A stretch of 64,000 nucleotides of DNA from Actinomycetota bacterium (GTDB lineage Bacteria; Actinomycetota; Actinomycetes; Streptosporangiales; Streptosporangiaceae). The stretch is from assembly GCA_027314515.1 (NCBI GenBank), contig DAHVAR010000092.1, forward strand, positions 1-64,000, read 5' to 3'. The notes below the pieces were generated by a model. That model ran no database searches. It saw nothing but the letters and a program-made list of their open reading frames with translations, and was not told the origin of the DNA. The position numbers and the translations under genes are program-made. Positions 8,127-23,336 of this stretch are shown piece after piece (positions within the stretch are counted from its first letter, which is position 1; each line of letters begins with the position of its first letter).

Positions 8127-8419
8127 AAGGGAGCCACGAGAACTGGGCCGGCATCAAGTTCGGCGATGTCGAACTGGCGTTCATCCTGGTGGACGCTTAC
8201 CGCGCTCCGCAGTGGCCCGACAGCGAGCACCCTAAGCAGTTCCACCTCGACTTCGAAGTGGACGAGATCGAGTTCGAGCAGCGCCGCGTCCTCGACCTCG
8301 GCGCGACGCTGCAGCAGGACTTCATCGGCCCCGGCGGCTACGGCTGGCGGGTCTACACCGACCCGGTCGGCCACCCGTTCTGCCTGTGCCGCAACAAGGG
8401 CGTCATCTGGACCGGCTAG
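8123..8419 (+). pseudogene. N-terminally truncated VOC (glyoxalase-like) gene
   Basis: 98 codons from TTG 8123, overlapping the hydrolase stop by three bases. The residues PQWPDSEHPKQFHLDFEVD and GGYGWRVYTDPVGHPFCLC are strongly like the second half of the actinobacterial VOC proteins of the Glyoxalase_6 type. The first beta-alpha-beta module of about 25-35 residues, which normally opens these proteins, is missing, and no frame upstream supplies it because the hydrolase occupies that DNA. The fold needs both modules, so this is probably a decayed gene fused to the end of the hydrolase by deletion. A small protein made by read-on translation remains possible. Confidence 0.65.
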
Positions 8420-8480
8420 GGCCCGATCTGTCCCGAGTCTTCGAAACCTAGCCTGAGCTGTGATTTCAAGTTTCAGCGGC

Positions 8481-9326
8481 TCAGTCGTAGGTGTAACCCG
8501 AGGAGGCGGTGGTACCAGCCAGCGCCAGCAGGACGCGCAGGAGGCGGTAGATCTCCGGGTAATCAGAGCCGGTGTACTCGCTGTCCCTGGCGCCAACCCG
8601 GCGGACGCCCGGCACGGACGCACATAGCGCCGCGATGCTGGTCGAGTTCCACGACACCCGCAGGGTGGTCGGCGTGGTGACCTGGTAAGGCTCGTAGTCC
8701 GACAGCTTGGACACCGCCCGCGTGGCCGCGTCCCTGATCTGGTCCCTGGCCAGTTCCGGATGCAGGGACAGGGCAGTGTACTTGTCGATCGCCTCCTTCA
8801 CCTCGACAGCCTCGACGCTGCCCAGGCAGGCCCGGCCCTCGGCGCACAGCACGTCATCCCCGGTGATCATCGCGACCGGGACGCCGTGCCAGCCCGCCAG
8901 CGCGGCATTCAGCCGCAGTTCACCGGCCGGCTCATCGTTCAGGAAGACGCCGAGGACGTCCCTGCCGCGCATGGTGTGATTCAGCACGCCGCCGGCCTCG
9001 TTCCCGGCCCTCGCGTGATAGCCGACGAACAGCGTCGCCGCGGTGTCCTCGTCGATGCCCTGCATCATCCCGTATTCCTTGCTGCGGCCGCGGATGATGC
9101 GGGCCCGGCGGTCAAGCTTGTCCGGGATCAGGTTCAGCATGCCATCGTGCGAGTCGTTGACGATGACCTCGGTGGCTCCGCCGTCGAAACAGCCTTCAAT
9201 AGCGGCGTTGCACTCGCCGGTCATCAGCTCCCGGCTGTAGCTGAAGTGCGGCGCACCAGGAATCGTGTCAGCGGCATCGGCAATTCCGGCGATACCTTCC
9301 ATGTCGATCGAGATATGCACCTTCAT
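8481..9326 (-). CDS. dppA: M55 family D-aminopeptidase (DppA-like), copy 1
   Basis: 281 residues. The start at 9326 is chosen over ATG 9347 because GAGGAGAGGAG sits correctly before it. It also gives metal ligands Asp8, Glu10, His60 and His104, the same numbers as in Bacillus subtilis DppA (SIDMEG, NDSH, GYHA). A further His (LNHTM) and Glu (GELRLNA) complete the site. DppA is a binuclear zinc, decameric enzyme that releases N-terminal D-amino acids, preferring D-Ala-D-Ala and D-Ala-Gly-Gly. The gene is last in a reverse-strand series with a dipeptide-type solute-binding protein and two permeases, so it most likely digests what they import. Confidence 0.92.
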   Translation of the reverse strand: MKVHISIDMEGIAGIADAADTIPGAPHFSYSRELMTGECNAAIEGCFDGGATEVIVNDSHDGMLNLIPDKLDRRARIIRGRSKEYGMMQGIDEDTAATLFVGYHARAGNEAGGVLNHTMRGRDVLGVFLNDEPAGELRLNAALAGWHGVPVAMITGDDVLCAEGRACLGSVEAVEVKEAIDKYTALSLHPELARDQIRDAATRAVSKLSDYEPYQVTTPTTLRVSWNSTSIAALCASVPGVRRVGARDSEYTGSDYPEIYRLLRVLLALAGTTASSGYTYD

Positions 9327-9385
9327 CGGGCGCGCTCCTCTCCTCATCGGCCGGGCCGGCCTGGTGATCCGCTATCAGCTGCCTG

Positions 9386-10291
9386 TTACCTGCGCTGCAG
9401 TCTGACCTCGACTAGGTCGCGCAGGGCGTCGCCGACCAGATTGAACGCGACGACGACGATCACGATGCAGATTCCGGCCGGATAAATAAGCCACCAATAG
9501 CCGTCGAAGATGTAGTTGAGGCCAGTGGTCAGCATGCCGCCCCAGTTGGCGGCCGGGGGAGGCGGGCCGAGGCCGAGAAAGCTCAGCGCGGCAAACAGCA
9601 GGATCGCGTTGGCCACCTCGAAGGTCGCCTGCACCACCACGGTGCCGATGACGTTCGGCACCAGGTGCCTCAGCACGATCTGCCGGGCTGTGCCGCCCAG
9701 TGCGCGCGATGCATGCACGAAGTCGAGCTGCCGCAGTACCAGCACCTGGCCGCGGACCAGCCTGGCGGTGGTGAGCCAGGAGATCAGGCTGAGCACGATG
9801 ATCACCATGATCAGGCTCGGCGTCACCAGCGTCGACAGCAGCAGGACGAGCAGGAGCGCGGGGATCGCCAGCAGCGCGTCCACGATCCGCATCATGGCGC
9901 TGTCGAGCCAGCCGCCAAAGTACCCGGCGACGGATCCCCACAATGTGCCGAACACGCTCGCGATCACGGCCGCGGCAAGCCCGACCTCCATGGAGGACTG
10001 GCCCGCCACCATGAGCCGTCCGAGCACGTTGTAACCGACGTTGTCGGTGCCCAGCGGGAACTGAGCGCTCGGATGGAGCGTGATCCGGAGCAGGTTCGGC
10101 GTGGTCTGGTCGGTGTGGTAGAAGACCGGGCCGAGAAAGCTGAACAGCAGCATGATGATGATCGCGCCGAGCCCTATGCTGCCCATCGGATTGCGGAAGA
10201 ATTCCGCTACCTGCTTGCGCCACGACTTGCCGGGCCTGGCGGCGATCTGCGGTGCGTTCAGCGGCTGGGTGCTGACCGGTGCGGCGGTCAT
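9386..10291 (-). CDS. dppC: Peptide ABC transporter permease, DppC-like
   Basis: 301 residues. About six membrane helices and the inner-membrane permease signature (SRALGGTARQIVLRHLVPN, the EAA loop that docks on the ATPase) put it in the OppC/DppC family. The N-terminal cytoplasmic stretch WRKQVAEFFRNPMGSIGLG is the usual start of the OppC_N domain. It lies 31 bases after the DppB-like permease and 59 bases before the M55 aminopeptidase. It should form a heterodimer channel with the upstream permease. No ATPase gene is linked, so energising subunits must be encoded elsewhere. Confidence 0.92.
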   Translation of the reverse strand: MTAAPVSTQPLNAPQIAARPGKSWRKQVAEFFRNPMGSIGLGAIIIMLLFSFLGPVFYHTDQTTPNLLRITLHPSAQFPLGTDNVGYNVLGRLMVAGQSSMEVGLAAAVIASVFGTLWGSVAGYFGGWLDSAMMRIVDALLAIPALLLVLLLSTLVTPSLIMVIIVLSLISWLTTARLVRGQVLVLRQLDFVHASRALGGTARQIVLRHLVPNVIGTVVVQATFEVANAILLFAALSFLGLGPPPPAANWGGMLTTGLNYIFDGYWWLIYPAGICIVIVVVAFNLVGDALRDLVEVRLQRR

Positions 10292-10322
10292 CCGATGTCT
10301 CCGTCGCTCATGCTGTAAACGG

Positions 10323-11276
10323 TCATGCTGCCTGGTACCGGATCCGCGGGTCGGCCCACGCGTAGGCGATGTCGGCGAGCAGATTGCCGACTACCGTGGC
10401 GACGGCTACCACGACCGTGAAGCCCATCAGGACCGGGTAGTCGTGCGCGCCGGTAGCAGTCCAGAACAGCCATCCCATTCCCGGGTAGTTGAACAGCGCC
10501 TCGACGATGATGGCGCCAGAGAAGACAGTCGGCAGACTCAGACCGGCCAGCGTGATGATGGGCAGCACGCTGTTGCGGAGCACGTGCCTGCGGACCAGCT
10601 GCCAGCGCGAGTCGCCTTTCGCTAGCGCCGTCCGCACGAAGTCCTGCAGCATCGTCTCAATCGCCGAGGACCGCATGAACCGGCTGAACTGCGCCACCGT
10701 GACGATCGTCAGCGTCGCCACTGGCAGCACCAGGGCACTCGGGTCGGACAGCGAAGCAGACACCGACGCACCCTGCGGGCCCTCAGGCGGGAAGATGTGC
10801 AGCTTCGCGGAGAACAAGACGAGCAGCAGCATGCCCAGCCAGAACGTCGGCATCGCGTAGCCGACAAAGGACAGCGTCGTGACCGTGTGATCGGTGACCT
10901 TGTTCCGCTTGAGCGCCTGGATGATGCCGAGCGGGATCGCTAGCAGCAACGCGATGACGTAAGAGCTGCCGATCAGCAGGGCGCTTTTGGGCATGTCGAG
11001 CGAAAGCAGCGAGCCGACGGACTGGTCGAAGTGATAGGAGAAGCCCAGATTGCCGTGGACGAGCCGATCCAGATAGTCGATGTACTGAATGGGGAGCGCG
11101 CGGTTGTATCCGTTGGCGTCGTTGAATGCGCGGATCGCGCCCGGAGTTGCATGAATGCCGAGCAGTGCACGGGCTGGGCTGCCCGGCAGGAAGTGCAGGA
11201 TCGAGAACACAACGACCGTGACGATGAAGAGCACGACCAGAGCCTGTGCGCATCGTTTAACGAGGTACCCTCGCAT
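10323..11276 (-). CDS. dppB: Peptide ABC transporter permease, DppB-like
   Basis: 317 residues. The N-terminus MRGYLVKRCAQALVVLFIV and the N-terminal DppB loop with H-x-N-L-G-x-S are typical of OppB/DppB. The EAA loop reads VRTALAKGDSRWQLVRRHVLRNS, with the usual DFVRTA-x-AKG phrase. About six transmembrane helices. It lies between the solute-binding protein (81-base gap holding two hairpins) and the DppC-like permease. Substrate is probably short peptides, given the M55 D-aminopeptidase in the same series. Confidence 0.92.
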   Translation of the reverse strand: MRGYLVKRCAQALVVLFIVTVVVFSILHFLPGSPARALLGIHATPGAIRAFNDANGYNRALPIQYIDYLDRLVHGNLGFSYHFDQSVGSLLSLDMPKSALLIGSSYVIALLLAIPLGIIQALKRNKVTDHTVTTLSFVGYAMPTFWLGMLLLVLFSAKLHIFPPEGPQGASVSASLSDPSALVLPVATLTIVTVAQFSRFMRSSAIETMLQDFVRTALAKGDSRWQLVRRHVLRNSVLPIITLAGLSLPTVFSGAIIVEALFNYPGMGWLFWTATGAHDYPVLMGFTVVVAVATVVGNLLADIAYAWADPRIRYQAA

Positions 11277-11303
11277 CCGTCCTCTTCACTCCTTGCAGCT
11301 ACC

Positions 11304-11347
11304 GGCAGGCTGTGCCTGCCCTGGCCGGGCTAGCTGCCCGGCCAGGG
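11304..11347 (-). promoter_or_regulatory. Two tandem intercistronic hairpins between binding-protein and permease genes
   Basis: In the 81-base gap after the solute-binding-protein gene there are two perfect inverted repeats. One has 12-bp arms CCCTGGCCGGGC/GCCCGGCCAGGG (11319-11330 and 11336-11347) with a 5-base loop. The other has 7-bp arms GGCAGGC/GCCTGCC (11304-11310 and 11314-11320) with a 3-base loop. Transcription enters the 12-bp stem first. Such stems commonly protect the upstream mRNA from 3' decay or cause partial termination, giving more binding protein than permease. No T-tract follows, so strong intrinsic termination is unlikely. Confidence 0.7.
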
Positions 11348-11357
11348 CGAACTCTCG

Positions 11358-13211
11358 TCAGCCCTTGAGGTACCAGGTGCCCGGGTAGATGTGTGCGGTC
11401 GAGTCCTGCGCGGTCACGCCCCCCAGCTTCGGCGAGATCGCCGAGATCTGGTAAGCGGCGTTCGGGAACCACAGCACGGGGACCTGCTTGGCCAGCTGGA
11501 TCTGGTACTGAGACATCGCGGTCGCTGATTCGGCCGGGTCGCCAGCGATGATCTTGTTGATCTGCGCTTCGATCTGCTGGTTGCAGTAGTTGCCGCCGTT
11601 GGTGGACCCGCCGCAGCCAAAGAGGCTGTCGCCGTCCGGGTAGTAGATCGGCACGTAGGTGTAGGACGGTGAGGCGAACAGGCTCAGCGCGGTCGAGCTG
11701 GCCGGGCACTTAGCGGTCGTCTCGCCGAAGCACTGGTACGCCTCGGACAGCACGGTGTTCGCCGGCGCCTGGGTGAGCTGCAGCTGGATGCCGTTGGCGT
11801 CAAACGCTCCCTGCATCGCCTGGACCTCGTCGTCGAGCGACGGCACACCGGCTGTGTACAGCACCGGGAAGGTCAGCTTGGTTCCGGCCGGGATGCCGGC
11901 CCCGCAGGCCGTGCTGCCGGTGCCCGCCTTCGCGCACACTGCCGGCCCGCTCTTCGGGATCGTCCAGCCGTGCGAGGTAAGCAGGGCCCTGGCTGCCGTC
12001 GGGCTGTACGGGTAGGGGTTCGTCTTCTCTGCCGGGTTGAGGAACGAGCTCGACGGGAACGTCGGCACCGGACCGTAGGTTGGCGTCCCGTAGTTCAGCA
12101 GGATCCGGGAGATGTACGCAGGCTGGTTGATGAGTTCCTGCATGGCCTGGCGAATGTAGAGCTGATTCTCCAGCGCAGCGTACTTGGGGTTGCTGAAGTT
12201 GATCTCGGCGAAGGTAAAGCCCCACTCGTACCAGGGGTTGATCGTGTAGCCCTCGGCCTTCAGCGAGCCCAGGTCGCCGATGTCGGTCGTCGGCACGTAG
12301 CCGTAGTCGACGCTGCCCGCCTGGAGCGCGTTGAACTCTGCCTGCGCGCTGGTGAACGGCAGCTCTTCGAACTCGCTCGCATGTGGCTTGTCCGGCCCGG
12401 AGTACAGCTTGTTCGGCACCATGATCGTCTGCCCAGTGACCTGGAAACCGGTGTTGGGCTTGAGCCGCCATGGCCCGTCGACCACCTGCCAGAGCGGGTT
12501 GGTGTCCCAGGTGGACAGCGACATCGACTCCTTGTTCATGAAGTTGTAAACGGCCTTGGCGCCGGCTGTGGTCATGTCGTAGTTGCCGATGGCGCCGGTA
12601 GCCGAGGTCTTGTCCCAGACAGCCTGCGGGATTGGCTGCAAGATCGACAGGCCGTTGTAGAGCAGGTAGGTCGGGTTGTACTTCACGTTGAGGTTCAGCA
12701 CGAACGTGCTGGCGTTCGGCGTCGACATGCTCGCCACGTGGTCCATCCAGCCACCGGGCACGTACGCGGCGCTCTGGTTCTTCTCGGCAAGCAGGAGGTT
12801 CATCCAGAACAGCAAGTCACGCGAGGTCACCGGCTTGCCGTTGGACCACTCGTACTTCTTCAGCGTCATGGTCACTGTCTTGCCGTTGTTGGAGAACACC
12901 GGCGGATCGGCCATGCTCAGCTGGTAGTTGATGGTCGCCTGGTCGTTGTTGCTGTGCCCGAACCAGTACAGCGGCAGCCACATCAGCGGCTGGAGGTAGG
13001 TGATGTTGTTGTTACCGGAATTAGCGCCGTCATACAGCGGGAAAATATAAGTAGGCGGAGATCCCGGCTGCTCGGCGAACGTCACGATGCCGCCGGACTG
13101 CGGCTTGCCGGAGTTAGCGTTCTTGCCGGAAGAGCCGCCACAGGCGGCCAGGCCGAATATGGCAGCGGCAGCAGCAGCGGTGAAGGCGATCGCCCTGCGA
13201 TGACTTCTCAC
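11358..13211 (-). CDS. Peptide ABC transporter substrate-binding lipoprotein (SBP_bac_5)
   Basis: 617 residues. A signal peptide ends in the lipobox FGLAAC (Cys24 acylated), followed by a Gly/Ser/Asn linker. The body has family 5 binding-protein hallmarks: LKKYEWSNGKPVTSRDLLFW, INFSNPKYAALENQLYIRQAM and repeated tyrosine/tryptophan-rich strands. It would hold a peptide outside the membrane and pass it to the two permeases encoded next. First gene of the reverse-strand series; its promoter must be in 13212-13570. DppA, OppA and nickel or sugar binders share this fold; the adjoining D-aminopeptidase favours D-amino-acid dipeptides (inference). Confidence 0.92.
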   Translation of the reverse strand: MRSHRRAIAFTAAAAAAIFGLAACGGSSGKNANSGKPQSGGIVTFAEQPGSPPTYIFPLYDGANSGNNNITYLQPLMWLPLYWFGHSNNDQATINYQLSMADPPVFSNNGKTVTMTLKKYEWSNGKPVTSRDLLFWMNLLLAEKNQSAAYVPGGWMDHVASMSTPNASTFVLNLNVKYNPTYLLYNGLSILQPIPQAVWDKTSATGAIGNYDMTTAGAKAVYNFMNKESMSLSTWDTNPLWQVVDGPWRLKPNTGFQVTGQTIMVPNKLYSGPDKPHASEFEELPFTSAQAEFNALQAGSVDYGYVPTTDIGDLGSLKAEGYTINPWYEWGFTFAEINFSNPKYAALENQLYIRQAMQELINQPAYISRILLNYGTPTYGPVPTFPSSSFLNPAEKTNPYPYSPTAARALLTSHGWTIPKSGPAVCAKAGTGSTACGAGIPAGTKLTFPVLYTAGVPSLDDEVQAMQGAFDANGIQLQLTQAPANTVLSEAYQCFGETTAKCPASSTALSLFASPSYTYVPIYYPDGDSLFGCGGSTNGGNYCNQQIEAQINKIIAGDPAESATAMSQYQIQLAKQVPVLWFPNAAYQISAISPKLGGVTAQDSTAHIYPGTWYLKG

Positions 13212-13570
13212 TATGAAGACTCCGTAATCCGACGGCGCGACTGGTCTGCGACCAAATCAAGCGCTATGAATGCTCGCTGACAGCAGCATCGCTGTAGTGC
13301 CGCCTCCCAGACCCTAGGGGAGGCGGCTCGTGTGGACCCCGCGCAGTTCTACTTCTGTGCAGGACAGTTTCGTGCCACGCCCGTGGGCAGGCCATGTACC
13401 GATGACCGAACGTCGCGGCTGGTATTCGTCCGCCGCGACTAAGGTCCGACCAGGTGAGCCCGGCTGTCCGCGGCCTGGTCTGGCCGTTTGTCCCTGACGG
13501 CGAAGACCTCGCGCCGGCTTCGTCGGCCCGGCCCAAGCACTGGGGGCGGGCCCGGTGATAGATGTGCCTC
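13212..13570. promoter_or_regulatory. Divergent intergenic region between peptide transporter and second M55 gene
   Basis: 359 bases between the outward-facing transporter operon and the second D-aminopeptidase; it must hold both promoters. A perfect 10-bp inverted repeat GCCGCCTCCC/GGGAGGCGGC (13299-13308 and 13318-13327, 9-base spacer) is near the middle-left and could be a hairpin or a regulator site. I see no obvious -10/-35 pair and no coding potential of its own: the frames crossing it are shadows. Confidence 0.5.
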
Positions 13571-14410
13571 ATGGACGTAGTGATTTCGGTCGACATGGAA
13601 GGCGTGGCAGGCGTCGCCACCAGGCAGCAGACCCGGCCGGGCGGGCGCGACTACCAGCTGGCCCGGACGCTGATGACCGCCGAGGCGAATGCCGCGATCG
13701 CTGGCGCGTTCGACGGCGGCGCTACCTCGGTCGTGGTGAACGACAGCCATGGGCCGATGGACAACCTGCTCGGGGAGCAGCTCGACCCGCGAGCGGACTA
13801 CGTGGTCGGATCGCCCAAGCCGGCCATGATGATGCAGGAGGTGACGGCGGCAACGGGCGTGGCCCTGTTCGTTGGCTACCACGCCGGCGCATCCGACCCG
13901 GCTGGCGTGCTCGCGCACACCTATAACGGCCTCGGCTTCGCGGACGTGCGACTGAACGGGCACTCGGTCACTGAGGCCGAACTCAACGCACTGATGGCCG
14001 CCGAGCTGGGAGTCCCAGTCGGGCTGATCACCGGGGACACCGCTATCTGCGCGGTCGCCGAGAAGGCGCTGCCCGGCGTGGTGACCGTGCCGGTCAAGAC
14101 TGCGATCGGCTACACCGCGGCCAGGAGCAAGCATCCTTCGGCAGCCAGACAGGCCATCCAGGCAGGTGCGCAGCGTGCCGTGGCCGATGCCGTGGCTGGT
14201 GCCCTCCGGGTGGCGCCGGTCCCCGATGAGCTGATGATCGAGGTGGATCTGCGGCCGCACGGAGCGGCCGAACTCGCCGCGCGCGTGCCCGGCGCCGAGC
14301 GGCTAGGCGCCCGAACGGTCCGGCGCCGGGTGGCCGACACCCGGGAGATGATGAATGTCCTGGTGGTCTGGTACTCCCTGACCAGCCAGTTCATCGCCAG
14401 CCAGGCATGA
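13571..14410 (+). CDS. M55 family D-aminopeptidase (DppA-like), copy 2
   Basis: 279 residues from ATG 13571; ATG 13562 lies three codons earlier. The later start gives Asp8, Glu10 (SVDMEG), His60 (NDSHG) and His104 (GYHAG), numbered as in B. subtilis DppA and as in the copy at 8481. His116 (LAHTY) and Glu135 complete the metal and nucleophile set, so it should be active. The two copies are clearly diverged outside the motifs. It is transcribed away from the transporter operon, with 359 bases between. Probable role: release of D-amino acids from imported D-peptides. Confidence 0.9.
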   Translation: MDVVISVDMEGVAGVATRQQTRPGGRDYQLARTLMTAEANAAIAGAFDGGATSVVVNDSHGPMDNLLGEQLDPRADYVVGSPKPAMMMQEVTAATGVALFVGYHAGASDPAGVLAHTYNGLGFADVRLNGHSVTEAELNALMAAELGVPVGLITGDTAICAVAEKALPGVVTVPVKTAIGYTAARSKHPSAARQAIQAGAQRAVADAVAGALRVAPVPDELMIEVDLRPHGAAELAARVPGAERLGARTVRRRVADTREMMNVLVVWYSLTSQFIASQA

Positions 14411-14445
14411 GGGACGGATTGCTGAAGAAACGAGCCGCCGCTGAC

Positions 14446-15531
14446 TTAGTGCAACCTGAGGATGCGGCGGATCAGGGCGGCGGCTAGGGCGGCGCGCTGG
14501 GGCATGGCCGCCAGTGATGTCCATTCCCCTTCCGCATGAGCGTTGTCGCCAACCGCGCCGAGCCCGTCCAGCGTCGGAACTCCGGCCGCGGCGGTGCGGT
14601 TCCCGTCCGACCCGCCGCCGACCGCGACACCTTCTAGCGGCGGCAGGCCCTGCTCGGCCGCGACCTCGCGGGCGAGCGCGAAAAGCTCGCGTGACGACCC
14701 GGCCTCCAGGGGCGGAACCTTCATGCTCCGGTCGAGCGAGAGCGACGCATCCGCCAGGGCCGGGCTCATCGCCTGGAGCGCGGCTTCGACCCGCTGCTGC
14801 TCAGCTGCCGTGCTGGCCCGTACGTCGATGGCCACCGAGCCAGCGGCCGGAACAGCGTTAATGACCGTGCCGGCGCTGAGCACGGTCGGCGTGACAGTGG
14901 TGCCGGCCGCCGGGTCGGCCAGCCCTGCGATCGCCAGAACCTGGTGGGCGGCCTCGACGGCGGCGTTGACACCTCGCTCGGGCTCCAGCCCGGCATGAGC
15001 GGCGCGGCCGGCAATCCGCAGCGTGTACTGCGCGACGCCTTTCCTGGCAGTCTTGATGGCTCCCGCGGCGCTCGGCTCGAACACCAGCGCGGCGGCAGCA
15101 CCGCGCGCGGCCTCCTCGATCAGGCCCCCGGAGGTGGGCGAGCCGATCTCCTCGTCACAGTTCAGCAAGATCCAGACGCCCTCCAGGTCGTCGAGCTGGC
15201 TGGCTGCCGCGAACATCTGCACGACGCCGGCCTTCATATCGAACACTCCCGGCCCTGACGCCCGGTCGCCGGCCACGCTGAATGGCCATCGCGCCAGGGT
15301 TCCCGTCGGCCAGACGGTGTCGACGTGGCCGAGCAGCAGCACGCGGCAAGCGGAGCCGAATCGCCACATCAGGTGGGTCCGGCCGCCGCTGGCCAGTCTC
15401 TCCGGTGCCTGGCCGAGCCGTGCGCGGCCGAGCTCTGCGGCGATGTCGATGCATGCCGCGGTGCCAGCGAGGTCGGACGACGGGGACTCGCAGCAGACCA
15501 GCTCGGCAAGGTCATCAGCAAACGTCGGCAT
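14446..15531 (-). CDS. M20 family metallopeptidase (carboxypeptidase G2/deacylase-like)
   Basis: 361 residues with a full M20 di-metal set: His69 and Asp71 in GHVDTVWP, Asp98 in GVFDMKAG, Glu127-Glu128 in NCDEEIGSP, Glu152 in VFEPSAAG and His332 in GDNAHAEGE. An inserted dimerisation domain lies between about 165 and 275 (GRAAHAGLEPERGVNA). The ArgE/DapE/CPG2 family hydrolyses N-acyl amino acids or C-terminal glutamate. With the racemase-like enolase and acyltransferase encoded 3-5 kb away, an N-acyl-L-amino-acid deacylase role fits (inference). No signal peptide. It converges with the second M55 gene 35 bases away. Confidence 0.9.
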   Translation of the reverse strand: MPTFADDLAELVCCESPSSDLAGTAACIDIAAELGRARLGQAPERLASGGRTHLMWRFGSACRVLLLGHVDTVWPTGTLARWPFSVAGDRASGPGVFDMKAGVVQMFAAASQLDDLEGVWILLNCDEEIGSPTSGGLIEEAARGAAAALVFEPSAAGAIKTARKGVAQYTLRIAGRAAHAGLEPERGVNAAVEAAHQVLAIAGLADPAAGTTVTPTVLSAGTVINAVPAAGSVAIDVRASTAAEQQRVEAALQAMSPALADASLSLDRSMKVPPLEAGSSRELFALAREVAAEQGLPPLEGVAVGGGSDGNRTAAAGVPTLDGLGAVGDNAHAEGEWTSLAAMPQRAALAAALIRRILRLH

Positions 15532-15663
15532 GAGGCCATTCTCCGCGCGCCATGACGGGGAGAATTCGTGGTCCGGCGAGAAGGACAGCCGCGGAGTTCG
15601 TGCTGCCGCATCTCGCCAGCCTGGCGCCGGCGGCGCAGGATGAGGACGCGACTACTAGCTTGA

Positions 15664-16247
15664 CGAACCAGGCACGTCCTGCTCGAGCGGGTCGGCCTTG
15701 AGTTGGTCAACGACGGCCTGTGTGCTCTCGGGCTCACGGTGACCACGCTTGTCGGGGGACTGCCGGCGCCTGCTGGGGAGCTGACCGAGCGGCTCGGCGG
15801 CCTGGAGGCCGCGGAGCGGCTCGGCGCCGCCATCAGCCCGGCGAGCCTGGCCGGAGTCCGCTCCCTGGATCCCGCCAGCACGAACCGCACGACCGCCCGC
15901 GAGACGACCAGCCTGCCGGCGCGGATCTGGCAGGACACGGCTGGCCCGGCAGAAGCATGCGCGGAGGCCCGCGGGGTTCTTGACCTGCAGCTCTTCCGCG
16001 ACCGGCTGCGCAGCGGCTTCGGCGACGGCGTTGAGGTCAGCGGGAAGACCGGGACGCTGCCGGGATCAGGAACGAGGCGGGCGTGGTGGAGTACCCGGAC
16101 GGCCGGTGCTACGCGGTGGCCGTGGTCACCCGGGCGCGCTCGCTGGCGCGGGTGCAGCCGGCCATCGACGCGTTCATCGGCTCTGCCGCTGCCGCCGCTG
16201 TCGGCTACCTGCGCGCCGAGGCCGGGCTGGCAGCCGGCTCTGACTGA
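15664..16247 (+). pseudogene. Class A beta-lactamase-like serine hydrolase, N-terminal half missing, frameshifted
   Basis: From about 15664 the forward strand reads like the second half of class A beta-lactamase-related hydrolases: LDPASTNRTTARE, ARIWQDTAGPAEACAE and the KTG box in VSGKTGTLPG. The frame then breaks. If one G is added to the GGG run at 16062-16064, it continues as IRNEAGVVEYPDGRCYAVAVVTRA and ends at TGA 16245-16247. The front half with SxxK and SDN is absent: an in-frame TGA lies at 15661 and nothing recognisable precedes it. Two independent lesions make this a pseudogene. The frameshift alone could be a sequencing error, the missing half could not. Confidence 0.75.
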
Positions 16248-16267
16248 CCCCGGTGGCCAGGCAGGCC

Positions 16268-17995
16268 TTAGCGAGCGCGGGGCGAGGCGTCGAGCAGGCG
16301 CAGCTGGAGCATGGCAGCGAACCGCGAGTCTGCGTCGTCGAGGTCGAGCCCGCTCACCTCGGAGATACGACGGAGCCGGTAGCGGAAGGTGTTGGGGTGC
16401 ACGCGCACCGTTGCAGCCGCCGCGATCACGTCACCGAAGGCGTCGAGCCACGCTCGAAGTGTGGGAACGAGCACCCCTCCGTGCGCGGAGTCGTACTCGA
16501 GCAGCCGGGTTATCGGGCCAGCAGGCGGCGGGTCGGCCCCGATCAGGTCGCCGAGATCCAGCAGCAGGCAGTCCACGTGCACGTCGGCCGCACGCGCGAC
16601 GCGCTGCGAGCCGACCCGCGCGCGCAGCACCCGGAGCGCACGTTCGGCATCCGCCCGGGACCTGGCCAGTCCGGCGATGTCCTCGGCGACGCGACCGACC
16701 CCGATCAGCCCGGGGACCCGGCCGCCGGTGCGCTGCAGGAAGTCACGGGCAACGGCGGCGACTCGCTCGTCGCCGCTTCCGCGGCCCGGCGGCACCGGGA
16801 CGACGCCGTATGCCATCCCGCCGAGCAGCGCTACGGCCGTTCCTGAGTGCACCGCAGACAGGTGCAGGGCAAGCGCGTCGGCGGCTCGCTGCCGTTCCGC
16901 CTCTTGCCGGGCGAGCGACAGGGCGCCGCCGGGAGGTTCGTCCGGCAAGCCCATCGCGAGCACGACGACGGGCCGTCCTGCCAGGCCAAGCCGGGCTGCA
17001 GCGTCGGCCGCTCCCGGGCCCGCCTCCAGCACGGTAGCGACCAGGTCGGCGCGCAGCCGCCGTTCCACGTCGGCTCCTGCACGCAGCCGCAGCATGTGCA
17101 GCGCGACCAGCTTCGCGGAGTCGATCAGAGCCTGCTCCCTGACGGGGGCGAGGGGTGCCTTGGTCGCCACCCAGATCGAGCCGAGGATGTCGTCGCCGGC
17201 CCGCACGGCCACCGCAACCCGCGGCATCGACATCTGCGGCACCTCGGAGAACTTCGCATCGACGAAGACCGGGCGGCTCCCGCCGTAGAGCGCCCGGAAC
17301 ACGCCGTGCTCCTCAAGGACCCGGGTGTAACGGTCGGGGACCTGCCGTCCGAGGATCGTCTCGACCCTGGAGAGGTCAGCTTCGTCCTGCCTGCCGGAGA
17401 AGGCCAGCACCCGCGAGCTGCGGTCCTCGAAGGTCACCGGCGCGTCGAGCAGCGCCGCTACCGCGTTAGCCAGCGCGAAGAGGTCGCCGGCTGGCACTCC
17501 GCCGATGGTCTCGTGCGCGCCGGACTGCAGGTCGCCCTCGGCGAGCAGCGAACGGAGCAGGGCGGCGAGCTGATTCCAGGACGCGCCGCGGCTCAGAGCA
17601 CACAGGACGGTGCGAGTCCGTGCCACCGCGTCGCGTACGGCTTCGTCGACGAGTGCGGGAGCGCGGACCACCAGGCCTACGCCGCCGCGGGCGCCGATCG
17701 CGTCGATCAGCGCGGCTACCTGCTCGCTGCTGTGCACGCCGACGCCGAGCACCAGCGCATTTGGCGGCAGGGCGGGCTCGTCCAGCGGGTCGTAGATGAC
17801 CACGCCGCCGATCTCGACCGTCGGGTCTGGCTGCCCGGCGGCGATGTCCAGCAGGGTCGTACCCAGGTGGTCGAGGACGCGCCCGAAGCTTGCGGGCGAG
17901 CAGGTCATAGCGGTGGGCGGCAGGCTGTCCACGGCCGCCAGGCCAGGACTGCGCGGCCGGAGTGCGGATGAACCGGCTGGGACGACGGCGGTCAT
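16268..17995 (-). CDS. PucR-family transcriptional regulator (CdaR-like, C-terminal HTH)
   Basis: 575 residues. The order is an N-terminal PucR ligand-binding region (about 40-165, AGQPDPTVEIGGVVIYDP), a GAF-like middle (about 190-330), the GGDEF-like region of the family, and the C-terminal HTH_30: LEYDSAHGGVLVPTLRAWLD then VRVHPNTFRYRLRRISEV. The V-HPNT-RYR-RRI phrase is diagnostic. These regulators control purine, amino acid or polyamine catabolism in response to a bound metabolite. It follows the reverse-strand enolase gene by 153 bases, so it may sit at the end of that operon or be self-transcribed. ATG 17908 (residue 30) is an alternative start; neither has a clear ribosome-binding site. 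Confidence 0.9.
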   Translation of the reverse strand: MTAVVPAGSSALRPRSPGLAAVDSLPPTAMTCSPASFGRVLDHLGTTLLDIAAGQPDPTVEIGGVVIYDPLDEPALPPNALVLGVGVHSSEQVAALIDAIGARGGVGLVVRAPALVDEAVRDAVARTRTVLCALSRGASWNQLAALLRSLLAEGDLQSGAHETIGGVPAGDLFALANAVAALLDAPVTFEDRSSRVLAFSGRQDEADLSRVETILGRQVPDRYTRVLEEHGVFRALYGGSRPVFVDAKFSEVPQMSMPRVAVAVRAGDDILGSIWVATKAPLAPVREQALIDSAKLVALHMLRLRAGADVERRLRADLVATVLEAGPGAADAAARLGLAGRPVVVLAMGLPDEPPGGALSLARQEAERQRAADALALHLSAVHSGTAVALLGGMAYGVVPVPPGRGSGDERVAAVARDFLQRTGGRVPGLIGVGRVAEDIAGLARSRADAERALRVLRARVGSQRVARAADVHVDCLLLDLGDLIGADPPPAGPITRLLEYDSAHGGVLVPTLRAWLDAFGDVIAAAATVRVHPNTFRYRLRRISEVSGLDLDDADSRFAAMLQLRLLDASPRAR

Positions 17996-18148
17996 CGGAG
18001 CCGGTGGCCGCAGTCAGCGGTGCGGAGCACGTAGATCACCTTGGTGCCACCTCGGGAGATGATCGCCTCGACTGAGAGTTTCAGCGAGTATAGGTGGTTC
18101 GGCTAGCCCGTGCCGGGGTCTTCCGGCCGGTACGGAGGCCGCTGACCT

Positions 18149-19261
18149 TCACTTTAGGCTGATCCACTCGCTGTGGGTGGTGACGGAGTCAAGTGCCGCC
18201 TGGTCGGGCTCGACGCCGATTCCGGGCCCGGATGGCACGTCGAGGTGACCGTCCCGCAGCACGAACGGGGCGGTGATGTCCCGGTCGAAGTAGCGATCGG
18301 AGGCGCTCGTGTCGCCTGGAAGCGTGAATCCGGGCAGCGCGGCGAGCGCGACGTTGGCTGCCCGGCCGATGCCGGTTTCCAGCATCCCGCCGCACCAGAC
18401 GGGCACCCCGTGAGCGCTGCATACGTCGTGCACCCGCCGCGCCTCGAGGTAACCGCCCACCCGGCCCGGCTTGACATTGACGACACGGCACGCGCCGAGC
18501 GCGATCGCATCCGCCGCAGCCCGTGCTGAGGTGACCGACTCATCCAGGCAGACCGGGGTGCGGAGCAGCGCGGCCAGCGCCGCGTGGCCGCGCAGGTCGT
18601 CCTCGGGCAGCGGCTGCTCGATCAGCAGCAGGCCGAAGTCATCGAGCCGCGCCAGCTGCTGGGCGTCCGACAACGTGTAAGCGGTGTTGGCATCCACCTG
18701 CAGCAGCAGGTCGTCGCCAAACCGCTCGCGCACCGCGCGGACGGGCTGCAGGTCCCAGCCCGGCTTGATCTTCAGCTTGATCCGTACATAGCCGGCGTCG
18801 AGGTAACCCGCCACCGCGTCCAGCAGCTCGCCGATGCTGGCCATGATGCCGACCGACACGCCTGCCGCCACGCGGGTCCTGACGGCCCCCAGGTAGCTCG
18901 ACAGCGCCATGCCCGAGGCCCGCAGCTCCGCGTCAAGCACCGCCATCTCCACGGCCGCCTTGGCCATCGGGTGGCCCTTGATCTTGGCAAGCTGCTCGGC
19001 CACTGCAGGGCCGGTCAGCGCTGCCGCCGCAGGTACCAGCGCGGGGAGCAGGAACTCGCGGATGACCGCTGCTGCACCGTCGACCCACTCGGGGGAATAC
19101 AGCGGCGAGCCCATGGCCACGCACTCGCCCCAGCCTTCTGAGTCAGGGCCTGCCGCACGCAGCAGCAGCACGTCTCGTTCGGTCTGCGTGCCGAATGAGG
19201 TTTCGAAGGGGGCGACGAGTGGCATCCGCACGCGGCGCAGCTCAAAGCCGTTGACCTTCAT
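18149..19261 (-). CDS. menC: Enolase-superfamily N-acylamino-acid racemase / o-succinylbenzoate synthase
   Basis: 370 residues of the MenC/NSAR group. The capping-domain start RRVRMPLVAPFETSFGT is typical. Barrel residues are all present: the Lys-x-Lys pair Lys162/Lys164 (RIKLKIKPG), metal ligands Asp190 (QVDANTAY), Glu215 (IEQPLPEDD) and Asp240 (CLDESV), and the opposite Lys264 (VNVKPGRVGG). Two bases on opposite faces allow either OSB dehydration or 1,1-proton transfer on N-succinylamino acids. No other menaquinone gene is nearby, while a GNAT acyltransferase abuts it directly, as in the N-succinylamino-acid racemase operons described for Geobacillus. I therefore favour racemase; the gene symbol reflects family only. 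Confidence 0.88.
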   Translation of the reverse strand: MKVNGFELRRVRMPLVAPFETSFGTQTERDVLLLRAAGPDSEGWGECVAMGSPLYSPEWVDGAAAVIREFLLPALVPAAAALTGPAVAEQLAKIKGHPMAKAAVEMAVLDAELRASGMALSSYLGAVRTRVAAGVSVGIMASIGELLDAVAGYLDAGYVRIKLKIKPGWDLQPVRAVRERFGDDLLLQVDANTAYTLSDAQQLARLDDFGLLLIEQPLPEDDLRGHAALAALLRTPVCLDESVTSARAAADAIALGACRVVNVKPGRVGGYLEARRVHDVCSAHGVPVWCGGMLETGIGRAANVALAALPGFTLPGDTSASDRYFDRDITAPFVLRDGHLDVPSGPGIGVEPDQAALDSVTTHSEWISLK

Positions 19262-20215
19262 TTACTCAGCCTCCTGGCTACCGCCGTCCAGACGGTGGTA
19301 CTCGGTCCCGGGTTGCAGCAGGTAATAGCCGGGGCAGGCGAAGCCATCGACGCGATAACCGGCACGCATGGCGCCGCCCAGCGCGGCGCGGACCGCCTGC
19401 CGCCAGGCCAGTGCCAGCTGTGGATCCTCGCGCCGCATGAGCTCGATATCAGCGGGGACCGCGCAGGCCAGCGGCTCGTTTCCGGTTCGGATCGGGTCGA
19501 CGAGCTGCGGGGCTCCGCGTGCATCCCGGCTCAGCGCCAGGCGGCCGACTCCAGCCAGCCGGGCCAGGCCCACCTCGGCCAGGTCCGGGCTTGCATGCTT
19601 GTCATGGACCGCGAGCAGGGTGGACTCCGAGCTGAGGTCCCATTGCGCCAGCAGCCGGTCGCTACCCTGCCCGGCGTTAATGCCGTCGCTCATGTCCCCG
19701 TAGAAGTCGGCCAGATAGGCGACAGCCCGGGCGCCGAGCTTCGACAGGTTGAAATAGGCATTACGAGCCACCAGCGGGTCGAAAGTCCAGGTGACCTGGG
19801 TCATGCCGCGCGAGAGCGCCCATGCTCGCTGATGCAGCTTCAGTGCGAAGCCGACATGACGGCTGCGCGCGGCTTCAGCTACCCCCGCAATGTGCGAGTG
19901 CAGGTGAGCGGGTCCCAGCTCTGCGGTGTTCCCGGTGAGGAAGCCCGCCGCCGCGCCGAGCAGTTCGCCGTCGGCGTCGTAAGCCCCGGCGACGTAGCCA
20001 CCGATAAGCGCGAGGGTCCGGGTCACGTGCGCTGGCAGCGGCGACCTCACCGGATCGGCAGACCACACGCGTGCCAGCAGCTTCTCGGCCGCCTGATGCT
20101 CAGCGGCCCGCGTCATCTCCCTGACCTCGACGTCACTGGCGAGGGCGGCGGCTTCCGCGTCGGCCTGTGCCCGCCGGGCTGCGTCGCTGACGTCCGCCAG
20201 CGCGGTTGGCTCCAC
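19262..20215 (-). CDS. GNAT-fold N-acyltransferase (COG3375-like), racemase partner
   Basis: 317 residues. The N-terminal half carries the GNAT core: YVAGAYDADGELLGAAAGFL, then LGPAHLHSHIAGVAEAARSRHVGFALK, where the R-x-x-x-G-x-A turn contacts the CoA pyrophosphate, then MTQVTWTFDPLVARNAYFNLSKLGA. These blocks match the predicted acyltransferases found beside N-acylamino-acid racemases. In that characterised pathway the enzyme succinylates D-amino acids with succinyl-CoA. The stop is directly adjacent to the racemase start (19262/19261), implying translational coupling. It lies 103 bases after the aminotransferase. Cytoplasmic; specificity not deducible. Confidence 0.85.
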   Translation of the reverse strand: MEPTALADVSDAARRAQADAEAAALASDVEVREMTRAAEHQAAEKLLARVWSADPVRSPLPAHVTRTLALIGGYVAGAYDADGELLGAAAGFLTGNTAELGPAHLHSHIAGVAEAARSRHVGFALKLHQRAWALSRGMTQVTWTFDPLVARNAYFNLSKLGARAVAYLADFYGDMSDGINAGQGSDRLLAQWDLSSESTLLAVHDKHASPDLAEVGLARLAGVGRLALSRDARGAPQLVDPIRTGNEPLACAVPADIELMRREDPQLALAWRQAVRAALGGAMRAGYRVDGFACPGYYLLQPGTEYHRLDGGSQEAE

Positions 20216-20318
20216 GAGAACACAATCGAGGGCCGGCCTGAGCTAGCTCATCGTCGCCGGATTAGAAGTAGTGCCAGCTTGCTTGTACCGTCCGACAGCG
20301 CCCGCCCATACCGGGTCC

Positions 20319-21674
20319 TTATAGCCAGCCAGCCTTCCGCATCGTGACGACGGCCCGGCCGAGCGCCTCACACGTGGCGTCTACGTCGTCTTCGCTGTGT
20401 GCAGCGGACAGGAATCCCTGAGTACCCATCAGGTCGATGCCCTCGAGGATCATCGCCTTTTGCAGCACGGGGCCGACCGGGCCCCAGCCGGCGGCGAGTT
20501 GCCGGCCGTCGGCTCGCGCGGAGGAGTAGTCCTCGCGCACCAGGGGCGGCGCCTCGCCCGGGCACAACCTGACGATCGACGACCTGCCGTACGCGAACGC
20601 CTTCACGTCAAGGTCGCTGAAGAGCGTGTTGATGCTGCCGATAAGGCGCTGCGCGAGGGCGCGGGCGCGATCGCCAGCGCCAGTCTCGCGGACCAGCCGC
20701 AGAGCCGTCACGCCTGCTGCCGCGGTAACCGGCGCGGCATTCCAGGTTCCGGAGTGCGGGATCATGCGCGAGCGCTGCCAGCGCTGGTCCGCGCGCCACT
20801 CGAAGAGCTCCATGACCTTGCCTGCGCCCACAAGAGCCCCGCACGGCAGCCCGCCACCGATGATCTTGCCAAGCGCGGTCAGGTCTGGAATGACGCCGAA
20901 GAGCTCCTGAGCACCGCCGATTGCGTACCGGAACCCCGAGACCACCTCGTCGAAAATGAGCAGCACGCCGTGATGTGCGGTGAGCTCGCGGACGCCGCGC
21001 AGGAAGCCCGGGTCGATCGGGACGGTCTCGCTGTGCGGGCCTGTGGGTTCCATGATGACCGCGGCCACGTCGTCGCGGGTGCTCAGCGCACGCTCGGCTG
21101 CGGCCAGGTCGTTGACCGGCAGGAGCAGGAGCGTGTTGCCGACTGCATCAGGCACGCCCGGGGGACGCGTCGCGCCGTGCGGCGGGCCGCCGACCGCGGC
21201 GGCGTCGTGCCAGCCGTGCATCGACGACTCGAACTTGACCACGATCTCCTTCCCGGTGTAGGCGCGCGCGAGTCGCATCGCCATCTGGGTGGCCTCCCCG
21301 CCCGACGCGAAGAAGCGGACGAGCTCAGCCGATGGCACGCTCTGCTTGATGAGCGTGGCCCATTCGGTGGCCAGCTCAGTCTCGCCGCCAGCATGCGTGC
21401 CGCGCCCGGCCTGGTCAGCGATTGCCCGGGTGATTGCGGGGTGAGCGTGCCCGAGGAGCATCGCCCCGTGGCCCATCCAGTAGTCGATGTACTCGTGCCC
21501 GTCTGCGTCGCGCTTGCGCGCACCCCAGTTCTCCTGGATGAACAGCGGGAACGGCGCTAGCTGACGGGCCAGGTGGGAATAGCCGCCCGCGATGACCTTC
21601 CGCTGCCGCTCGAATGCCTCGTGTGACCGCGGGTTGGCGTCCCGGTACCGTTCGTCGATGGCGTCGGTCGTCAT
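20319..21674 (-). CDS. Class III PLP-dependent aminotransferase (glutamate-1-semialdehyde aminomutase-like)
   Basis: 451 residues. Fold type I, class III features are complete: FFASGGEATQMAMRLARAYTGK, the FDEVVSGFR box with Asp242 for the pyridine nitrogen, and Schiff-base Lys270 in LTALGKIIGGGLPCGAL. Similarity is highest to HemL-like enzymes, but the context has no tetrapyrrole gene, so a dedicated amino-acid aminotransferase or mutase is likelier than heme synthesis. The ATG overlaps the stop of the upstream dehydrogenase by four bases (ATGA, 21671-21674). It should act with that enzyme on an amino acid or oxo-acid released by the peptidases (inference). Confidence 0.88.
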   Translation of the reverse strand: MTTDAIDERYRDANPRSHEAFERQRKVIAGGYSHLARQLAPFPLFIQENWGARKRDADGHEYIDYWMGHGAMLLGHAHPAITRAIADQAGRGTHAGGETELATEWATLIKQSVPSAELVRFFASGGEATQMAMRLARAYTGKEIVVKFESSMHGWHDAAAVGGPPHGATRPPGVPDAVGNTLLLLPVNDLAAAERALSTRDDVAAVIMEPTGPHSETVPIDPGFLRGVRELTAHHGVLLIFDEVVSGFRYAIGGAQELFGVIPDLTALGKIIGGGLPCGALVGAGKVMELFEWRADQRWQRSRMIPHSGTWNAAPVTAAAGVTALRLVRETGAGDRARALAQRLIGSINTLFSDLDVKAFAYGRSSIVRLCPGEAPPLVREDYSSARADGRQLAAGWGPVGPVLQKAMILEGIDLMGTQGFLSAAHSEDDVDATCEALGRAVVTMRKAGWL

Positions 21675-22717
21675 CCGGTCGCCTCTGCAGCCAGGGGAAG
21701 GATGTCAGCCATGGTGAGCAGCCCGGGCCGGGCGGCTGCGACGACCGGCACCAGGTTGGCGATCACCGCGGCGGTCCCGATGTCGCCATTGATCCCGCCG
21801 GGAACGTGCTGGCGTATCGGCGGGTTGCCGTCGATCTCGATGTCGTCGCTGGCCGACGCTCCGGCGCTCATCTGCAGGTCGTAGCGCAGTACCTCGCGCC
21901 CGCCACTGAGCACGGTAGCACGCTGGTGCTGACCGATGACGTCGCCGGCTGGGATGATGCCCAGCCCGGTCTGCACCGGCGACTCTGCGATCACTGGCTC
22001 GATCTGCTCGGAGTAGTCATCAACCTGCCAGCCGAGGCGAGCCGCCACCAGCAGCGCCGATTGGCGCAGCCCCACGTGGCCGATGCGGCGGGCCTGCGCC
22101 CTTGCCCGGAACTCGGCTGACGTTAGTCCCACGCCGGCCTTCTGCTGAAGCGGCATCCGCCGGGCATTGGTGTCGACCACCCGGCGGACCTGCACCGCAC
22201 GCACAACCGTGCACGCGCCGCTCAGCACCAGAACCAGGGCGTCGAGCAGGAAGCCCGGGTTGATGCCAGCTCCGAGCAGCGTGCGTCCGTGCCGCCGGGC
22301 CAGTGCATTCAGTCGCTTGGCAATAGCCGGGTCGGCCGCCTGCGGGTAGACAAGCTCTTCGCAGGTCGACAGCACGTTCCAGCCGTTCTCGAGCAGCCCG
22401 GCTAGCTGTGGCTCTACTGCTGCCAGTTGCGAGCCGGTGGCGTGCACCGCCACGCCGTCTCTGAGCGATTGGCTCGCTTCACGGGCTATGATGGCCACCG
22501 GCGCCGGCCGGTCGAGCAGGTCTGAAAGATCTCCGCCGACCTTGGCCGGGTCGATGTCCACGGCACCGGTCACGCTCACCCCGGACCGCTCGCACAGCAC
22601 AGCTGCGATCGCCAGGCCGATCGGGCCGAGCCCGTAACACAGGACCGGGATGACCTCGCCTCGTCCGCCGGCCTCGGGCCCGGCCCCAGTCTCAATCGAG
22701 TCCTGTAGCGCGCTCAC
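21671..22717 (-). CDS. NAD(P)-dependent amine dehydrogenase, dihydrodipicolinate-reductase-like fold
   Basis: 348 residues. The N-terminal Rossmann motif VLCYGLGPIGLAIAAVL is followed by AVDIDPAKVGGDLSDLL. The middle has LENGWNVLSTCEELVYP and TLLGAGINPGFLLDALVL, and the C-terminal half ends ASDDIEIDGNPPIRQHVPGGINGD. These blocks match the family that includes 2,4-diaminopentanoate dehydrogenase of ornithine degradation, related to DapB. The true substrate here is not known; oxidative deamination of an amino acid derivative is plausible. It is the first gene of the reverse-strand set that runs dehydrogenase, aminotransferase, acyltransferase, racemase. Confidence 0.8.
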   Translation of the reverse strand: MSALQDSIETGAGPEAGGRGEVIPVLCYGLGPIGLAIAAVLCERSGVSVTGAVDIDPAKVGGDLSDLLDRPAPVAIIAREASQSLRDGVAVHATGSQLAAVEPQLAGLLENGWNVLSTCEELVYPQAADPAIAKRLNALARRHGRTLLGAGINPGFLLDALVLVLSGACTVVRAVQVRRVVDTNARRMPLQQKAGVGLTSAEFRARAQARRIGHVGLRQSALLVAARLGWQVDDYSEQIEPVIAESPVQTGLGIIPAGDVIGQHQRATVLSGGREVLRYDLQMSAGASASDDIEIDGNPPIRQHVPGGINGDIGTAAVIANLVPVVAAARPGLLTMADILPLAAEATG

Positions 22718-22867: not shown

Positions 22868-23336
22868 ATGATTACCGGGCTGGCCAAGCGCCGGGCTGCG
22901 GTGTATACGAAGATCCACCATGCCGCAATCGATGGCGTGTCAGGCGCGGAACTGCTTACCGTGCTGCTCGACCTCAGTCCCGACGGCCGGGAGGCACCAG
23001 CGAGTGAGCCGTTCCGGCCCGCGGAGCCGCCGAGTCCGGCCATGAGAGCTCCCGCTGGCCGCGCTTGCCGCCGCCAGGCTGGCCTGGCGGCCCGTTCAGA
23101 CTGTGCGGATCACCAACGAGCTTGTCCGGGTAGTGCCGACGCTGGCGCCTGCCGGCAGCACCTTTGTCGGCGGGATGCTCGGGCTTGGCCGCGGCGACGG
23201 TGGCGTGATTCGCTCTGCGCCTGGCCGGGCGCCGGCAACGCCGGTCAACAAGGCGATCACCGCGCACCGCAGACCGGCGTTGCGCAGCGTCGACCTGTGC
23301 CGTCTACCCGGGTTCGCCCCCCTCAACGGGAGCTGA
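22868..23336 (+). pseudogene. Wax ester synthase/DGAT-type acyltransferase remnant
   Basis: The forward frame from 22868 reads AVYTKIHHAAIDGVSGAELL, which contains the HHxxxDG active-site motif of WS/DGAT acyltransferases (triacylglycerol and wax ester synthesis). Roughly 120 residues normally precede it and are missing. After about 23045 the match moves to another frame: GRGDGGVIRSAPGRAPATP then NKAITAHRRPA, resembling the conserved APATPFN-x-PITAHRR segment, and ends at a TGA near 23336. A truncated start plus a frameshift mark it as a dead fragment. It lies directly before the tRNA-His-associated island. Confidence 0.75.

Follow-up and report, generated by a model that had tools for sequence, protein, structure and literature searches.

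A candidate D-residue peptide scavenging locus built on a conserved actinobacterial N-succinylamino acid racemase module

Organization of the locus

We analyzed a stretch of 64,000 nucleotides from a Streptosporangiaceae genome (the window, G000:C19:1-64000; genome G000 is a 5.86-Mb draft in 280 contigs) which contains, at positions 8481-22717, a candidate locus for the scavenging of peptides with D-residues, including the gene of an N-succinylamino acid racemase (NSAR). Open reading frame (ORF) calling and Pfam and NCBIfam scans of the window placed every gene that the initial annotation of this DNA had named; the locus also contains three that it had omitted: a class-III aminotransferase, an amine-dehydrogenase-like reductase and a decayed beta-lactamase-like gene. 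The order is M55a(-), DppC(-), DppB(-), solute-binding protein (SBP)(-), M55b(+), M20(-), decayed beta-lactamase-like gene(+), PucR(-), NSAR enolase(-), GNAT(-), class-III aminotransferase(-) and amine-dehydrogenase-like reductase(-). Gaps inside the SBP-DppB-DppC-M55a unit are 38, 31 and 81 bp; the SBP and M55b genes are divergent and 350 bp apart, and M55b and M20 are convergent and 35 bp apart. PucR and the enolase are separated by 153 bp, the enolase and GNAT genes abut with 0 bp between them, as had been described, GNAT and the aminotransferase lie 103 bp apart, and the aminotransferase and reductase genes overlap by 4 bp.

The racemase module and its conservation

The gene at 18149..19261 (-) encodes an enolase-superfamily protein of the NSAR/o-succinylbenzoate synthase (OSBS) subgroup. 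It scored 312.4 bits (cut-off 200.65) with TIGR01928, the model of this subgroup that bears the name o-succinylbenzoate synthase, and 562.9 bits over its full length (residues 1-367) with the Amycolatopsis NSAR 1sja, in agreement with its earlier description as NSAR-like. Aligned to 1sja, it keeps K164, D190, E215, D240, K264 and R267 (window numbering), which we take to be the catalytic lysine pair, three acidic metal ligands and a second-shell arginine in a K-x-x-R motif. Models of the L-Ala-D/L-Glu epimerase gave only 54.6-63.4 bits, with cut-offs of 343 and 500. The enolase could also be a working OSBS for menaquinone synthesis with incidental neighbours, as it passes the cut-off of a model with that name and OSBS activity is common in the NSAR/OSBS subgroup. 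However, the genome has a menaquinone set elsewhere (contig C70), in which menB, menC and menD adjoin and menE lies on the other strand. There, menD scored 395.5 bits and a menB-like gene and an enolase-fold menC (L137:4068-5057) lie directly upstream of it; the names menB, menC and menE come from a reading of translations and gene order, and for menC also from Pfam enolase domains. This menC is 31% identical to the window enolase over 148 residues only. Because the set lies on C70, the window enolase is not the sole OSBS of the cell, and the OSBS role was rejected; with the 562.9-bit match to 1sja and the company of GNAT and M20 genes in many genera, such a role is highly implausible. As far as sequence tells, the enolase is an Amycolatopsis-type NSAR with no menaquinone duty and a predicted racemase activity, rather than merely the menC/OSBS enzyme that would have spoken against the initial annotation.

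The abutting gene at 19262..20215 (-) would encode a GNAT N-acyltransferase, and its structural model, a Foldseek search and its position at the NSAR gene led us to propose an acyl-CoA:D-amino acid N-succinyltransferase. No Pfam or NCBIfam family matched this protein, and the sole PDB matches of its sequence, de novo TIM-barrel repeats at E ~1e-3, were judged spurious. An AlphaFold model built from an alignment of the window protein and 39 homologues (40 rows) had a mean predicted local distance difference test score (pLDDT) of 88.6 and a predicted template modelling score (pTM) of 0.88. Since a Foldseek search of this model against the PDB put GNAT acetyltransferases first (E 1.9e-6, probability 1.00), the GNAT fold is supported at the level of the predicted structure; the label given to the gene earlier thus holds by fold, with no backing from Pfam or NCBIfam.

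The M20 deacylase/carboxypeptidase-like gene (14446..15531, -; PF01546) encodes a proposed N-succinyl-L-amino acid desuccinylase. In tblastn comparisons to NSAR loci it was 51-61% identical to the M20 proteins of other NSAR cassettes and fell in the same subgroup, and it aligned to carboxypeptidase G2 (1cg2) with 139.7 bits and with matching positions for the residues that we presume to form the active site. The PucR-family transcription regulator (16268..17995, -; PF13556 and PF17853) is mostly 48-64% identical to PucR proteins adjoining other NSAR genes. Between these two genes lies the decayed class-A beta-lactamase-like gene (PF13354; ~15676..16214, +), detected by tblastn with a homologue from locus L049. 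It aligns with residues 115-296 of the 297 of this homologue in two frames, with the N-terminal third missing and one frame change; the L049 homologue belongs to PF13354, and whole copies are found in some other NSAR loci.

The conservation of the neighbourhood was surveyed in 80 named loci, each with a close NSAR homologue (the best 80 of 585, from actinobacteria and a few Dormibacterota metagenome-assembled genomes), in 17 loci of further relatives (L116-L132) and in 40 control stretches of ~20 kb from same-class genomes, taken at chosen rather than random positions on long contigs. Counts were made with hidden Markov models (HMMs) whose seeds were genes of the window and of the cassettes, and families were named by Pfam scans of the window genes and of cassette representatives. 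GNAT was found in 70/80 named, 15/17 other and 0/40 control loci. In the same order, the counts were 47/80, 8/17 and 0/40 for M20, and 46/80, 8/17 and 4/40 for PucR. Importer genes were also frequent (OppDF ATPases 57/80, 11/17 and 13/40; DppBC 32/80, 8/17 and 0/40; SBP 10/80, 6/17 and 0/40), together with hydrolases of several families: S12 (41/80, 7/17, 2/40), S9 (24/80, 4/17, 0/40), M19 (12/80, 4/17, 0/40), Amidohydro_3 (10/80, 3/17, 0/40) and class-A beta-lactamase-like proteins (8/80, 1/17, 0/40). The aminotransferase was counted in 3/80, 0/17 and 0/40, and M55, the dehydrogenase, LdcA and CocE gave 0/80, 0/17 and 0/40 in this HMM survey. Co-occurrence with NSAR, on which the initial annotation had laid weight, therefore held far above the 40 controls for GNAT, M20 and PucR, and failed for M55.

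Gene order was conserved as well. In 66 of the 78 named loci with room and in 15/17 others, the gene immediately upstream of NSAR, and on its strand, was GNAT. M20 and GNAT were both upstream in 41 of the 75 named loci with room and in 7/17, and PucR was directly downstream in 24/72 and 2/17. When a narrower gap was required and both sets were pooled, the adjacency counts were 81/95 for GNAT upstream, 46/90 for M20 and 24/89 for PucR downstream. The order DppB-DppC-ATPase-ATPase-S9-S12-M20-GNAT-NSAR-PucR recurred in L045, L046, L047, L065, L066, L072, L085, L086, L087, L094 and others, and M19-M20-GNAT-NSAR was a second recurrent arrangement. All these data indicate that GNAT-NSAR-M20-PucR is a real module, conserved across Actinomycetota, with a predicted function in D-to-L inversion.

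M55 peptidases, importer and their linkage to the module

Two D-aminopeptidase-like metallopeptidases are encoded in the locus, M55a (8481..9347, -; PF04951, 309.7 bits), the last gene of the SBP-DppB-DppC-M55a unit, and M55b (13562..14410, +; PF04951, 307.1 bits). They matched Bacillus subtilis DppA (1hi9) with 144 and 142.7 bits, respectively, and every residue that we take to be a metal ligand in 1hi9 is aligned in both, which bears out the complete metal sites reported before. With the NCBI equivalog model of D-aminopeptidase DppA they scored 205.7 and 182.1 bits, below its cut-off of 430.

The importer genes encode a DppC/OppC-type permease (9386..10291, -; NCBIfam Opp4C, 279.8 bits, below the cut-off of 350), a DppB/OppB-type permease (10323..11276, -; Opp2B, 262.8 bits, below the cut-off of 350) and a peptide-type solute-binding lipoprotein (SBP_bac_5; 11358..13211, -; PF00496, 124 bits; lipobox LAAC). 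The dipeptide-type ABC importer of the initial annotation is thus present as an SBP and two permeases, and is incomplete as encoded: the locus has no ATPase gene, and 19/19 oligo_HPY matches of G000 lie elsewhere, two of them at 34.9-36.2 kb of the window. An in-window partner was rejected, as the only OppD/F pair (34.9-36.9 kb) belongs to a GH4/ROK sugar-type operon. This operon (32505-43172) comprises a GH4 glycosidase, a complete Opp-type importer with ATPases and, at its far end, a ROK repressor-like gene; its kinase/ROK-like proteins were assigned by eye. The closest importer paralogue, on contig C248, is accompanied by ATPases (identities of 61% for DppB, 57% for DppC and 44% for SBP) and, by this similarity, would be a better candidate than the in-window pair as ATPase source. 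The window permeases share ~26-41% identity with their counterparts in other NSAR cassettes, and nine SBP matches of G000 reach E <1e-60, one of them being the window SBP itself.

The linkage of M55 to NSAR was examined in 60 genomes, our own included, of which 17 had a close NSAR (>400 bits) and 13 of these also an M55. In the sister genome G006, whose proteins are 95-99% identical to those of G000, the genes from M55a to M20 end one contig (C89) and those from PucR to the reductase start another (C238), so that both contigs end inside the locus; these halves fit the G000 order and are no proof of it. In the other 11 genomes, M55 and NSAR were on different contigs or, in G020, 3.9 Mb apart; several of these contigs are short and a few linkages could be missed.

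G000 also has a second M55 locus, on contig C24 (L133, G000:C24:3000-22900, ~513-13064). It encodes a D-aminoacylase-type amidohydrolase, DppC, DppB, SBP, an RpiR regulator, a diaminopimelate-decarboxylase-like enzyme, an LD-carboxypeptidase-like protein, M55, another M20 and a GlcD-like oxidase. Its DppC, DppB and SBP are 51%, 54% and 38% identical to those of the window, and its importer is also without an ATPase; the presence in G000 of two importer sets with no adjoining ATPases (C19 and C24) suggests that ATPases are shared. We also picked 13 stretches around M55 genes (L146-L158). Parts of the C24 set are shared by L148, L151, L155 and L158 (M55, that M20, the LD-carboxypeptidase, RpiR and an importer with ATPases), whereas L147 has M55 and the LD-carboxypeptidase only; L146 is the G006 version of the window locus. 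In L149, L150, L152, L153, L154, L156 and L157, M55 was alone among the queried genes. By its gene content, the C24 locus looks like the peptidoglycan-peptide locus of this lineage.

These results bear on whether the window holds one system or two unrelated neighbours with no common route, one (M55, importer and M20) serving peptidoglycan-type peptides and the other formed by the NSAR unit. The two-unit explanation draws on the absence of M55 from all 80 named NSAR loci, on the recurrence of M55, another M20, LD-carboxypeptidase, RpiR and importer as a set of their own (most members in each of the four stretches above), and on the layout of the window, where importer and M55b are divergent and the NSAR unit is separate. 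However, the M20 gene 35 bp from M55b is of the NSAR-cassette subgroup, so that the M55 and NSAR units abut directly. Moreover, another cassette member, the decayed beta-lactamase-like gene, lies between M20 and PucR, and other NSAR cassettes also carry importers and peptidases, of other families. We therefore regard two independent units as unlikely, and treat the M55/importer part, on the basis of these gene neighbourhoods, as an apparently lineage-specific and unproven addition to the inversion module.

Aminotransferase, reductase and neighbouring genes

The GNAT-NSAR unit is headed by two further genes. The first of this minus-strand unit encodes a reductase resembling 2,4-diaminopentanoate dehydrogenase and native amine dehydrogenase (21671..22717, -; PF19328, 114 bits), and is followed by the class-III aminotransferase (20319..21674, -; PF00202, 165 bits). 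The nearest solved structure to the aminotransferase is 2cy8, a stereo-inverting D-phenylglycine aminotransferase (249.6 bits), and the best glutamate-1-semialdehyde aminomutase reached 233.4 bits; no NCBIfam cut-off was reached among the 25 of 68 matches listed. The reductase scored 238.3 bits with the ornith_Ord equivalog (NF040740, 2,4-diaminopentanoate dehydrogenase; cut-off 400) and was nearest to 7xdu (184.5 bits), among dihydrodipicolinate-reductase-like and amine dehydrogenase chains. Among the 60 genomes, a close homologue of the reductase was found only in G006, in addition to one protein at 42% (G058) and four at ~30% identity. Both enzymes were considered as conserved NSAR partners and rejected: the three loci of 80 with an aminotransferase HMM match had proteins of ~28-32% identity, judged paralogous, and the dehydrogenase has its only close homologue in G006. 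It is a guess, and the weakest step of our proposal, that the pair might form a side route deaminating D-residues that the racemase handles poorly, and we hold it as doubtful.

Several features lie around the locus. A CocE/NonD-type S15 hydrolase gene (6261-8126, +; TIGR00976, 416 bits) adjoins M55a; it is 96% kept in G006 and occurs in 0/80 NSAR loci. Between G000 and G006, the ratio of nonsynonymous to synonymous substitution rates (dN/dS) was 0.05-0.30 for the 11 intact locus genes and CocE, at a dS of only 0.03-0.10. Just upstream of the locus, at 23672-25278 (-), is a pair made of an AbiEii-type nucleotidyltransferase toxin and an AbiEi antitoxin (PF08843 and PF13338). The stretch 22868-23422 (+) matches positions 121-171 of the wax ester synthase/DGAT catalytic domain (263 positions) and is an apparent gene remnant. 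Lastly, tRNA-His was called a second time over 99 bases (30166-30264, -) that overlap the start of the ORF 28495-30258; this call is probably spurious.

Discussion

Taken together, we consider it probable that the locus is an island for the scavenging of peptides with D-residues, with the conserved actinobacterial inversion module as its core. The SBP/DppBC importer would take up such peptides by means of the ATPases of a different importer (the closest paralogue being that of C248), and both M55 enzymes would cleave N-terminal D-residues. The free D-amino acid would then be N-succinylated by GNAT and the N-succinyl compound racemised by NSAR, after which M20 would strip succinate from the L form; PucR may regulate the unit. 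Selectivity of the M20 desuccinylation for the L form would pull the reaction one way, to the L-amino acid.

Several observations weigh against this interpretation. M55 was rejected as a conserved NSAR partner, with 0/80 named and 0/17 other loci, and among the 13 genomes with both genes they lie within 20 kb only in G000. The importer has no ATPase of its own, and the window M20 is separated from the NSAR and GNAT genes by PucR and the decayed gene. In addition, the survey is biased, as the surveyed loci themselves supplied its HMM seeds, contig ends truncate some of these loci and related species are not independent, and the acyl donor and the substrates of the route are inferred. Of the D-peptide-to-L-amino-acid route first proposed for this locus, the co-conserved inversion module has thus stood, and M55 as a partner of this module, D-Ala dipeptides as the feed and a complete importer have not.

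Regarding the substrates, the available portion of PMC8142540 reports NSAR activity with N-succinyl-phenylglycine, N-succinyl-phenylalanine and N-acetyl-methionine, and the GNAT of Sakai et al. 2006, as cited in the available portion of PMC8762209, uses acetyl- or succinyl-CoA to acylate D-Phe, D-Tyr and D-Trp. Because of these known NSAR and GNAT substrates, we lean to hydrophobic or aromatic residues (the D-Phe, D-Tyr, D-Met, D-Leu class) rather than D-Ala as the more likely ones to be inverted, by analogy and from compounds that others chose for measurement. A feed of D-Ala dipeptides, as initially suggested, is not obvious given these substrates and the separate M55 locus on C24; if the latter is the peptidoglycan-peptide locus, the case for D-Ala dipeptides as the main feed of the window locus is weaker. 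B. subtilis DppA prefers D-Ala-D-Ala, which cuts against the hydrophobic lean as far as M55 is concerned.

Instead of handling free D-amino acids or peptidoglycan, the locus might degrade D-residue antibiotics (nonribosomal peptides or beta-lactam-type compounds), either as a means of resistance or for nutrition. The cassette repeatedly carries S12 serine hydrolases, beta-lactamase-like genes and members of D-specific hydrolase families, and the aminotransferase of the window is nearest to a D-phenylglycine aminotransferase; according to the available portion of PMC3503884, semi-synthetic beta-lactams have D-phenylglycine and D-hydroxyphenylglycine as side chains. However, none of the scanned locus genes was identified as a biosynthetic or resistance gene, the beta-lactamase-like gene is decayed in the window and matches to characterised beta-lactamase models fell far under their cut-offs, which makes an antibiotic-degrading role improbable.

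Amycolatopsis-type N-acylamino acid racemases serve as biocatalysts. Their natural role is not described in the available portions of PMC8142540, PMC8762209 and PMC7431475, and no paper on an actinobacterial NSAR-peptidase-importer cluster was recognised by title in the open-access literature, which does not establish its absence from print. We give about even chances to the broader idea that the window represents a widespread, unrecognised actinobacterial D-peptide island, composed of an importer, interchangeable peptidases (S12, M19, D-aminoacylase-type and, in this lineage, M55), GNAT/NSAR/M20 and PucR, within which the Amycolatopsis-type NSAR would have its physiological function, with the aminotransferase and reductase as a lineage-specific outlet for D-residues. 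If true, such an island would give this NSAR a physiological role. The recurrent cassette suggests that many soil actinobacteria obtain D-amino acids from peptides and convert them irreversibly to the L form, and the variable peptidase slot (S9/S12, M19 or M55) may set the diet.

With the Amycolatopsis sp. N-acylamino acid racemase (1sja, 4a6g, 7s8w), the window enolase shares 562.9 bits over 367 residues and the same catalytic residues, whereas the source organism and the gene neighbours differ. The D-to-L pathway of Geobacillus kaustophilus, with its gene organization as we presume it to be, has in common with the window locus the three enzyme types and a GNAT directly upstream of NSAR. In contrast, the window M20 is displaced, its NSAR is of the Amycolatopsis type, and PucR, importer subunits, two M55, an aminotransferase and an amine-dehydrogenase-like enzyme are added. 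The Geobacillus pathway is made up of a GNAT succinyltransferase, NSAR and an L-desuccinylase (Sakai et al. 2006, cited in the available portion of PMC8762209), and the available text of PMC7431475 also deals with the NSAR/L-succinylase of this organism.

The combination of M55, peptide importer and an enolase-superfamily epimerase or racemase is shared with the dpp-ykf genes of B. subtilis. In that organism ykf is linked to dppA, with the M55 enzyme DppA and a peptide importer. However, the window enolase is an NSAR and not a dipeptide epimerase, and the window locus is without LdcA, NlpC/P60 and ATPase genes; the C24 locus (L133) of the same genome is the nearer analogue. The B. subtilis ykf operon acts on peptidoglycan peptides and encodes the LdcA-like YkfA and the Ala-Glu epimerase YkfB (available portion of PMC3305447). 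Lastly, the canonical actinobacterial NSAR cassette SBP-DppB-C-D-F-S9-S12-M20-GNAT-NSAR-PucR, as found in Microbacterium sp. MYb54 (L087), Kibdelosporangium persicum (L045) and Arthrobacter sp. (L094), has M20, GNAT, NSAR and PucR of the same subgroups as the window. It carries a full importer with ATPases together with S9 and S12 peptidases, whereas the window has M55 enzymes, an importer of another lineage without ATPases, the aminotransferase and the dehydrogenase.

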